From Christiangramia sabulilitoris (GTDB lineage Bacteria > Bacteroidota > Bacteroidia > Flavobacteriales > Flavobacteriaceae): a stretch of DNA of 64,000 bases. The stretch's first letter is position 1; every line of letters starts with the position of its first letter. Made by a program: the position numbers and the translations under genes. Below, piece after piece: positions 33,758-34,918 of the stretch. The stretch lies in the NCBI RefSeq assembly GCF_007050985.1, contig NZ_VHSF01000001.1:868001-932000 (forward strand). The letters run 5' to 3'. The notes under the pieces were generated by a model. The model did no database searches and had not been told where the DNA came from. It saw nothing but the letters and a program-made list of their open reading frames with translations.

Positions 33758-33830
33758 GGTGCCTTAGCTCAGTTGGTAGAGCAAAGGACTGAAAATCCTT
33801 GTGTCCCTGGTTCGATTCCTGGAGGCACCA
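33758..33830 (+). tRNA. tRNA-Phe (anticodon GAA)
   Basis: A 73-nt cloverleaf: acceptor GGTGCCT/AGGCACC, D-arm with AGCTCAGTTGGTAGAGC, anticodon stem AAGGA/TCCTT with loop CTGAAAA (GAA at 33791-33793), and T-arm CCTGG-TTCGATT-CCTGG, which has a U-U mismatch in the middle of the T-stem. CCA is not fully encoded (CC followed by T). The 3' end from 33819 on is repeated twice downstream as part of the GIY-YIG cassette. Confidence 0.97.
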
Positions 33831-33835
33831 CCTTA

Positions 33836-33873
33836 AAACCCTGAACTTTTAGTTCGGGGTTTTTTAATTTTAG
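33836..33873 (+). terminator. tRNA-Phe terminator (copy 1 of 3)
   Basis: AAAACCCTGAAC / GTTCGGGGTTTTTT hairpin with T-run. Further copies are at 34205-34240 and 34574-34610 in the repeats. Confidence 0.85.
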
Positions 33874-33877
33874 GCCT

Positions 33878-34162
33878 ATGCATTATCTATATATACTTTA
33901 TTCTCAAAAATTGAATAGATTTTATACAGGGGAAACTTCTGACTTACAGGCAAGATTAGAAATGCATAATACCCATCATTTTAAAAAAGCTTTCACGAAA
34001 CCGGCAGATGTCTGGACTTTAAAATTAAAATTCGAAACAAGGACAAGAGATGAAGCCAGACACCTTGAGCTTTTTATAAAAAGAATGAAAAGCAGAAAAT
34101 TCATTGAAAAAATCATACATAATCCACTCATTTTAGCGGAGATTTTAGCTGGAAGATCCTGA
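33878..34162 (+). CDS. small GIY-YIG nuclease domain protein
   Basis: A 94-aa single-domain protein. The GIY part is MHYLYILYSQKLNRFY and the YIG part is YTGETSD, followed by the helix with Arg (LQARLEMHN) and a C-terminal FIKRMKSRKFIEKII basic helix; the metal-binding Glu is probably in EARHLELF. Related to the UPF0213/YhbQ-like group of predicted endonucleases. It lies 48 bases after tRNA-Phe, behind the tRNA terminator, so expression needs read-through or a weak internal promoter. It is part of a tandemly duplicated cassette; a mobile or homing role is inference. Confidence 0.88.
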   Translation: MHYLYILYSQKLNRFYTGETSDLQARLEMHNTHHFKKAFTKPADVWTLKLKFETRTRDEARHLELFIKRMKSRKFIEKIIHNPLILAEILAGRS

Positions 34163-34187
34163 CCCTGGTTCCCCCGATGCTTCGGGG

Positions 34188-34556
34188 CTGGAGGCACCAC
34201 CTTAAAACCCTGAACTTTTTAGTTCGGGATTTTTTAATTTTAGGCTTATGCATTATCTATATATACTTTATTCTCAAAAATTGAATAGATTTTATACAGG
34301 GGAAACTTCTGACTTACAGGCAAGATTAGAAATGCATAATACCCATCATTTTAAAAAAGCTTTCACAAAACCGGCAGATGACTGGACTTTAAAATTAATA
34401 TTCGAAACAAATACAAGAAATGAAGCCAAACAACTTTAGCTTTTTATAAAAAGAATGAAAAGCAGAAAATTCATTGAAAAAATCATACATAATCCTCTCA
34501 TTTTAGCGGAGATATTGGCTGAAAGATCCTGACCTGGTTCCCCCGATGCTTCGGGG
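34188..34556 (+). repeat. 369-bp tandem unit B
   Basis: Near-identical copy of unit A at a constant offset of 369-370 bases: tRNA 3' end, terminator, GIY-YIG pseudogene, T-arm fragment and CCCCGATGCTTCGGGG palindrome. Confidence 0.9.
34248..34532 (+). pseudogene. GIY-YIG gene copy with a nonsense mutation
   Basis: Same length and nearly the same sequence as the intact copy at 33878. A single change of GAG to TAG at 34437-34439, in the segment corresponding to EARHLELF, truncates it after 63 residues; the remaining frame continues intact to a TGA at 34530-34532. The basic C-terminal helix is lost, so it is probably inactive. The low divergence shows a recent duplication. Confidence 0.88.
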
Positions 34557-34618
34557 CTGGAGGCACCACCTTAAAACCCTGAACTTTTTAGTTCGGGGTT
34601 TTTTAATTTTAGGTCTAT
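34557..34618 (+). repeat. partial tandem unit C
   Basis: Third copy of the tRNA 3' end and terminator (CTGGAGGCACC through TTTTAATTTTAGG), ending at an ATG that corresponds to the GIY-YIG start; after it the sequence is unrelated and a stop follows within four codons. It marks the downstream boundary of the array. Confidence 0.85.
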
Positions 34619-34918
34619 GTATCTCATTTAAACGTTTTAATCCTAAAAATCACAACATCTTATCAAGCTATTGCAGCAACTACAAGAGACTACTTAAATC
34701 CAAGAAATATCGTGGAAAAGGTCCTCGAAATAGCTATCATGAATAGAACCGATAACCGGAGAGATTTAACACGAATTAAGAAGCCCGGTCAAAATGACCG
34801 GGCTTTAATATGAAGGAATAATAAATTCCTTATACATTAGTTTTATGCAATAAAAATTTATCTGATCCATATAAATGATCAGAAAATGTTAATTTAAGAG
34901 TTAAGTATGTTAATCAAA
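34619..34918. other. gap after the cassette array with a terminator and possible gene remnant
   Basis: No complete gene. A plus-strand frame open from about 34615 to 34815 includes SYQAIAATTRDYLNPRNIVE and looks protein-like but lacks a start; a second frame ends KKYRGKGPRNSYHE at 34746. Either may be a decayed gene end; I recognise neither. A perfect hairpin (AGCCCGGTCA / TGACCGGGCT) follows at 34781-34804. Confidence 0.4.
34779..34808. terminator. hairpin terminator candidate
   Basis: AAGCCCGGTCA / TGACCGGGCTT with a 3-4-nt loop. Only a short T-run follows on either strand. It could serve the 49-aa peptide gene on the minus strand. Confidence 0.6.

Follow-up and report, generated by a model that had tools for sequence, protein, structure and literature searches.

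The 64,000 nucleotide stretch of the Christiangramia sabulilitoris genome analysed here (the window) contains a tRNA-Phe gene whose 3' end recurs behind it together with a very small nuclease gene, which raises the question of what kind of arrangement this is. The intact tRNA-Phe (GAA) was called by ARAGORN at 33758..33832 on the forward strand, as are all features of the array, and a genome search finds it to be the one full-length copy in this genome. Its terminator-like hairpin and T-run (33837..33865) belong to the first copy of the repeat, which runs from 33819 to ~33874, and are followed by an intact GIY-YIG nuclease gene of 94 aa (unit 1, 33878..34162) recognised from its ORF, a PF01541 match and a structure model. 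Immediately 3' of the stop codon is a 5' fragment of the T-arm, CCCTGGTTC (34163..34171, tRNA positions 48-56), then the palindrome CCCCGATGCTTCGGGG (34172..34187) in the place of tRNA positions 57-61, and then a second copy of the tRNA 3' end, from position 62, with its terminator (34188..34240). Unit 2 has the same composition, with a GIY-YIG gene at 34248..34532 that carries a TAG at codon 64 (34437-34439), the T-arm 5' fragment CCTGGTTC (34533..34540) and the same palindrome (34541..34556), and the array closes with a third tRNA 3' end and terminator (34557..34614) without a third gene.

Two tandem 369-bp units, also detected by TRF, therefore lie 3' of the single-copy tRNA, each in the order tRNA 3' end from position 62, terminator, GIY-YIG gene, (CC)CTGGTTC T-arm fragment and palindrome. 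A search of the 64 kb places CTGGAGGCACCACC, the tRNA 3' end, at 33819, 34188 and 34557 in steps of 369 bases, and the 16-nt palindrome at 34172 and 34541 only, where in both units it stands exactly at tRNA positions 57-61 (GATTC) of the T-loop. The ATGs of the two genes are 370 apart, as against 369 for the repeats, whose equal spacing is kept because one-base indels in the terminator and the T-arm compensate. Each unit holds one 94-aa ORF and, from the ORF translations, no integrase gene. An earlier note on this DNA had described the threefold tRNA end at 369-base intervals, the intact and nonsense-mutated nuclease copies and the T-arm fragment with its palindrome at the place of the T-loop, and in all three respects it was right, the spacing being owed to the compensating indels. 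A mutation of the tRNA caused by the element has been set aside, since the T51/T63 mismatch is also found in genomes of the genus without a cassette.

The unit 1 protein matches PF01541 with an E value of 5.5e-12 (46.2 bits against a cut-off of 22.6), the catalytic domain taking up residues 1-73 of the 94 with no separate DNA-binding domain; after it the structure model (mean pLDDT 89.6) has just two more short helices. PF01541 is the sole domain match at E values up to 0.001, a Y1 (HUH) tyrosine transposase domain being absent. Residues Y5, Y16, G18, R26, H30, E64 and K68, which we take to be the GIY-YIG active-site residues, are all present; in an alignment of 36 proteins (A1) R26 is conserved in at least 90% and the other six are invariant, so that the TAG of unit 2 replaces a family-invariant Glu64. 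Values of dN/dS range from 0.04 to 0.17 with a median of 0.09 among Phe-type genes of Flavobacterium (42 pairs) and from 0.08 to 0.47 among tandem gene copies (9 pairs), and purifying selection acts on the Phe-type nuclease genes. The closest solved sequences are UPF0213 or small GIY-YIG proteins and SLX1 (1zg2, E 8.2e-11; 1ywl, 3.5e-7; 7cq2, 9.4e-4), 1zg2 is also the best Foldseek hit (E 1.6e-3), and the catalytic domain of I-TevI comes seventh by fold. SLX1 is a structure-specific subunit acting on branched DNA, and we know of no tRNA association of either UPF0213 or SLX1.

Many genomes have this architecture at other tRNA genes too, which makes it more than chance; because it turns up in many unrelated genomes, both coincidence and an assembly artefact have been set aside. 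Scanning named genomes with the protein revealed 28 loci in Flavobacteriaceae, other Bacteroidota and Balneolaceae, 22 of which have a same-strand tRNA by ARAGORN. This is tRNA-Phe in 13 loci (L042-L046, L048-L055) plus L066, Asp in Balneolaceae, Met in Belliella, Val and Ala in Parapedobacter, and Arg and Asn at further loci, the "Trp" calls of ARAGORN at L065 being spoiled copies of tRNA-Asn. The tRNA-Phe before the cassettes of Aquimarina litoralis (L047:1003-1076) looks damaged at the T-loop (CCCTGGTATCGGGGCTGGAGG), possibly through an assembly fault in the repeat, as there are Ns in the contig nearby.

A profile of the 36 proteins of alignment A1 finds relatives in 95 of 148 Bacteroidota genomes with a completeness of at least 90%. 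The matches listed, which are the best-scoring ones, make up 148 places outside the window's genome that fall into 116 clusters in 60 genomes, and in 86 of these best-scoring clusters a same-strand tRNA lies within 100 bp (upstream of the gene in 71, downstream in 15), rising to 99 within 250 bp; a tRNA on the opposite strand was met in the fetched stretch of 1/116. Several of the 17 remaining clusters, which have no tRNA within 250 bp, are at contig ends. More than one match is present in 34/116 of the best-scoring clusters, a few of these being split matches to one broken gene, and tandem arrays reach 8 genes in the phylum survey. One of the 17 clusters lacking a tRNA (L230, G076:C34:5991-10778) is an array in which eight GIY-YIG genes follow one another with a period of about 365 bp and where ARAGORN finds no tRNA. 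Among the best-scoring clusters with a tRNA 15 isotypes are represented; the earlier note had proposed looking for such genes by other tRNAs, and with 15 isotypes found in the phylum survey besides Phe its idea of an element is not refuted. Cargo of phages or plasmids has been set aside, as the Phe-type protein has no match in the phage or plasmid collections and neither it nor the Pro-type protein has one in viral_contigs, by a search that sees close relatives only.

Across bacterial families the lineages of the nuclease correspond to the isotype of the tRNA. On a weakly resolved tree of 118 proteins and 83 columns, in which 56 of 115 inner branches are open and from which 22 of the 116 clusters were omitted (best gene with a stop or less than 65 aa in the match), isotype requires 44 changes against a shuffled mean of 87.5, with 0/200 shuffles as low. 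Phe and Lys each require 1 change, and for Asp, Ala and Gln there is little or no clustering. The arm of the tRNA that is replaced is also clustered, with 11 changes as opposed to a shuffled mean of 19.8 and a lowest value of 16 (54 rows, Ser and Leu units being omitted and 10 Phe rows assigned to the T-arm by inspection).

Occurrence is patchy within the window's genus, where all of the 24 genomes have one full-length tRNA-Phe and the 250 bases downstream of it were viewed. The Phe cassette is present in 6/24 (G000, G002 with a broken gene, G009, G010, G013 and G015), G003 retains the T-arm and palindrome only as a gene-less remnant, G020 has a carrier-like terminator and no gene, and the remaining 16 have none of these. 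Occupied and empty loci, which the earlier note had wished to see compared, do show gain or loss, but they do not yield a clean base-exact junction because the terminators of the empty genomes have themselves diverged. The tandem amplification and decay that it proposed can be seen in the arrays and broken genes, and loss is added by the genus comparison. A separate stretch of 44 nt in G021 (L094, C46:237954-237997) is identical to tRNA-Phe positions 32-75 and lies away from the tRNA-Phe gene.

The partner of the nuclease gene is a spoiled copy of the tRNA. A partial copy of the same tRNA is found across the gene in 88 of 103 gene-tRNA pairs, compared to 6 in a reversed-sequence control, and 62 of the 83 distinct copies with a chain score of at least 18 have an insert with a perfect stem of at least 6, where shuffled inserts lead one to expect 2.0; of the other 21, inspection shows hairpins that are decayed or nested in most, and the aligned part of 3 lacks an insert. 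It is often the whole arm that is replaced (Pro 29-45, Lys 26-42, Ala 27-43, Val 29-45), and half-arm replacements are also found (Asp 51-58, Gly 50-57, Asn 26-35 or 37-46, Met 38-47). At the Phe loci of named genomes a palindrome (TCCCGAAGCCTCGGGA, for example) directly precedes the downstream repeat, which begins at tRNA position 62 (63 once), and in the non-Phe copies of named genomes the palindrome replaces the anticodon arm, the T-loop or both. At four Phe loci (L044, L050, L053, L055) a palindrome is found inside the loop of the downstream terminator copy, the tRNA's own terminator being without one. There are also mirror-image Pro cassettes in the window's genus (L018, L021), in which the spoiled tRNA-Pro precedes the nuclease gene and the intact tRNA follows it, the stop codon of the gene falling within the tRNA 5' part.

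At the Phe loci the cassette restores the tRNA 3' end and terminator, as had been suggested from the window. The downstream 3' end and terminator have a mean similarity of 0.93 to the tRNA of their own genome and of 0.785 to those of other genomes, the own genome being best in 10/14 loci and another equal or better in 4/14; that the right-hand repeat tracks its own tRNA and terminator is what would be expected from repair or conversion, although those 4/14 loci do not show it. The tRNA-Phe beside the gene keeps a full T-loop, so the presumed target is retained in every Phe unit.

Spoiled copies are not confined to nuclease genes. The 42 tRNA genes that ARAGORN finds in the window's genome were examined, 20 were flagged and their sequences read, and 14 of them were thereby confirmed to have spoiled copies close by (Phe, Gly-tcc, Asn, Leu-taa, two Thr-tgt, Met, His, Ala-ggc, two Pro-tgg, Cys, Leu-tag and Arg-cct). 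Phe alone among them has the nuclease gene; since GIY-less units occur at the 13 others, nuclease and spoiled copies are separable. In the GIY-less copies either a palindrome or a longer GTCGAAGG-type repeat stands in for the T-loop, with up to 5 copies, often in tandem (5 for Gly, 4 for Asn in the window's genome). Tandem tRNA 3' ends with terminator and no GIY-YIG gene are seen at L296 (Gly), L304 (Asn), L293 (Leu), L313/L265 (Cys), L309/L266 (Ala) and others.

Furthermore, the palindrome belongs to a family that is dispersed over the whole genome and differs in sequence from one genome to another, which together with the anticodon-arm replacements elsewhere and the GIY-less units goes beyond the earlier note. 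Its core CCCGANNNNTCGGG has 51 sites in the window's genome and a TCCCGA/CCCCGA palindrome right after the T-loop GGTTC has 11, the control being 0 in each case. Genomes differ in the sequence type of the dispersed palindrome: the tRNA-Met copies of G150, G069 and G166 carry the type TCCGCC..GGCGGA, which is found at 9, 36 and 20 sites of these genomes respectively and at 0 in G000. T-loop footprints outside the Phe locus occur in 5/6 carriers of a Phe-type gene as against 3/18 other genomes (Fisher p 0.007, for non-independent genomes of one genus, with Phe-locus sites marked by hand and G002, with its broken gene, counted as a carrier). A run of eleven TCCCGA..TCGGGA palindromes with ~67 bp spacing was also noted in G155 (C1:329370-330057).

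Several known systems resemble parts of this arrangement. Some integrative elements use tRNA 3' ends as attachment sites; like these, the cassette brings a tRNA 3' part that keeps the host tRNA whole and its insert is flanked by direct repeats of the tRNA end, but unlike them it has no integrase, is only ~370 bp, has its downstream tRNA part interrupted by a palindrome and in the mirror cassettes carries the tRNA 5' part. With homing endonucleases it shares the position of the gene at a presumed target locus (99/116 best-scoring clusters, same-strand tRNA within 250 bp), but the target is not destroyed in the occupied allele, the T-loop of tRNA-Phe being intact, and there is no DNA-binding domain beside the catalytic one, such as the extra domain that I-TevI-like homing enzymes have. 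The nearest parallel among homing enzymes discussed here is SegB of phage T6, a GIY-YIG homing endonuclease that, according to PMC13096335, cuts inside tRNA genes with a preference for RAWTSGAAC (23/83 sites), still cleaves DNA with a disrupted motif, detectably but to a lesser extent, and leads to tandem amplification of the tRNA together with segB. The likeness to SegB of T-even phages lies in a freestanding GIY-YIG gene adjoining tRNA genes and in the tandem amplification of tRNA and nuclease, and the difference in a cassette, known here from sequence, that is in a bacterial chromosome, encodes a 94-aa single domain, carries a palindrome-spoiled tRNA copy per unit and has isotype-specific lineages in many bacterial families. 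The reverse complement of the SegB motif, GTTCSAWTY, fits the T-loop GTTCGATTC of the window's tRNA-Phe, the last five bases of which are the part replaced by the palindrome; the suggestion that the nuclease may cut the T-arm thus has a phage precedent in SegB (PMC13096335), and it agrees with the palindrome's place in Phe units.

We therefore favour, because of this fit between the SegB motif and the replaced T-loop, a nuclease-driven, homing-like minimal selfish cassette of 369 bp that is anchored on a tRNA gene and in which the palindrome marks a disarmed target, and we would give this reading about an even chance (roughly 0.5). The nuclease would cut or nick the tRNA gene in one arm, here in the T-loop between GTTC and GATTC, and the break would be repaired by recombination with a cassette-bearing copy. 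An intact tRNA on one side and a tRNA fragment with terminator on the other would provide homology to any tRNA gene of the same isotype, and the host tRNA would be re-made intact during repair. The spoiled copy, having its arm swapped for one of the dispersed 16-nt palindromes of the genome, would no longer be cuttable, and repeated breakage of the remaining intact tRNA with unequal repair between direct repeats would give rise to tandem arrays and losses. Cutting, the cut site, transfer and the entry of the palindrome are what we infer here from the arrangement.

The older idea of an integrating or homing element thus stands as regards the recurrence at tRNAs and the restored 3' end, but plain homing is insufficient: because the upstream tRNA is intact and with it the presumed target, self-protection is incomplete and ordinary homing accounts for the arrangement only in part, and the missing DNA-binding domain and the nearest solved relatives, UPF0213 and SLX1, also speak against it. 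Even a homing-like cassette has to contend with several observations. Disruption of a site need not be by a palindrome, yet it nearly always is; in other lineages it is the anticodon arm that is replaced; there are the GIY-less units at 13 tRNAs and the 4/14 loci that fit the terminator of another genome; and no relatives appear in the phage, plasmid and viral collections searched. The exactness with which arms are exchanged for hairpins and the palindromes in the terminator loops of the four Phe loci rather suggest an action on hairpins.

This leads to a second reading, possible though somewhat doubtful, of a GIY-YIG counterpart of REP/RAYT systems, in which a structure-specific nuclease with the putative activity of moving or copying palindromes into hairpins would have tRNA arms, terminator loops and REP stems as targets, the tRNA cassettes being autonomous and the GIY-less units non-autonomous copies. 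In its favour are the arm-for-hairpin replacements at the exact arm limits of Pro, Lys, Ala and Val, a palindrome type that is the genome's own dispersed family, palindromes in downstream terminator loops and, on visual inspection, in those of CGTC/GTCA-type repeats, and nearest solved folds in UPF0213 and SLX1. The isotype-specific lineages are not required by such a model. REP/RAYT systems (PMC3733652) are matched by short dispersed palindromes that flank a nuclease gene (here the non-tRNA GIY-YIG genes) and enter copies of other genes; RAYTs are Y1 tyrosine enzymes, unlike the GIY-YIG nuclease with a tRNA copy as partner sequence, and in the tRNA units one flank is the palindrome-bearing tRNA copy.

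The small GIY-YIG genes away from tRNAs, among them the six others of the window's genome (0/6 beside a tRNA), bear on the same reading. They have been seen between dispersed REP-like repeats on contig C17 of G000 (L001-L005) and in the genus (L322-L337, L345-L348). For 25 loci, the best-scoring among the matches listed in the genus and including one with a tRNA in the locus (L333), the left and right flanks share at least 13 nt in 22, against 2/25 in the control, which supports the second reading. Perfect GTC-tagged hairpins occur in 6/25 of these loci, with a density of 1.45 per kb close to the gene, 0.20 at a distance from it and 0.33 at large GIY-YIG genes, but the tag-permuted control is weak (CTG 0.96 per kb versus 1.44 for GTC). 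The number of GIY-YIG genes tracks that of palindromes with a rho of 0.79 over 22 nearly complete genomes of the genus and 0.66 in the 16 without a Phe-type gene, correlations that both ignore descent. The statistic for hairpins within hairpins is mixed, flank stems of at least 6 being found in 17/51, above the re-paired controls' mean of 6.1 (maximum 13), and of at least 7 in 0/51, below their 3.3. These non-tRNA genes are candidate mobilisers of CGTC-type REPs.

It would seem unlikely that the arrangement is passive, with duplication of tRNA 3' ends and insertion of palindromes being general in these genomes and the GIY-YIG genes hitchhiking or caught up in it. The 13/42 tRNAs of the window's genome that have spoiled copies and no nuclease gene are as this would have it, as is the freedom of redundant copies to take insertions, but hitchhiking predicts neither purifying selection nor a kept active site, nor that the genes should follow isotype and be placed on the tRNA strand, with 1/116 opposite. 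It is more improbable still that the protein acts at the RNA level on tRNA or tRNA-like RNA, the spoiled copy being a decoy, an antitoxin-like RNA or a regulatory 3' UTR. The copy adjoins the gene and is presumably co-transcribed with it, and substitution of hairpin for hairpin can keep a fold; however many copies are too partial for a tRNA fold (in Phe the T-arm and 3' strand only), GIY-YIG enzymes are known as DNA nucleases, and half-arm replacements such as Asn 26-35 and Met 38-47 break stems, on account of which a structure-preserving tRNA-like RNA was set aside.

A wider proposal, which we put forward tentatively and which is backed by the repeat-flanked relatives away from tRNAs, is that small single-domain GIY-YIG nucleases of Bacteroidota may be hairpin-targeting mobilisers, forming a class of mobile element whose nuclease would spread both itself and short palindromes into hairpins of DNA. 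Their favoured home, specific to isotype, would be tRNA genes, and CGTC-type REPs would be a further product; the tRNA cassettes would then be autonomous and the GIY-less copies non-autonomous. A search of open PubMed Central brought up no account of chromosomal GIY-YIG cassettes linked to tRNAs, or of tRNA copies spoiled by a palindrome, and no paper there was found to combine GIY-YIG with YhbQ or UPF0213, or with CGTC and REP. Selfish GIY-YIG genes associated with tRNAs are already known as a kind, and there is a fair chance that the cassettes are a new one.

The recurring packages point to an undescribed family of selfish elements living on tRNA genes. If this is true, what have been taken for isolated "GIY-YIG family protein" genes would be a selfish element, very small and driven by its nuclease, that the tRNA genes of a whole phylum host. 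It would be for bacterial chromosomes what SegB is for phages, and it would account for the tandem truncated tRNA copies found behind tRNA genes. It would also provide a candidate for the enzyme that spreads CGTC-type REPs, for which PMC3733652 reported in 2013 that a dedicated transposase is lacking.
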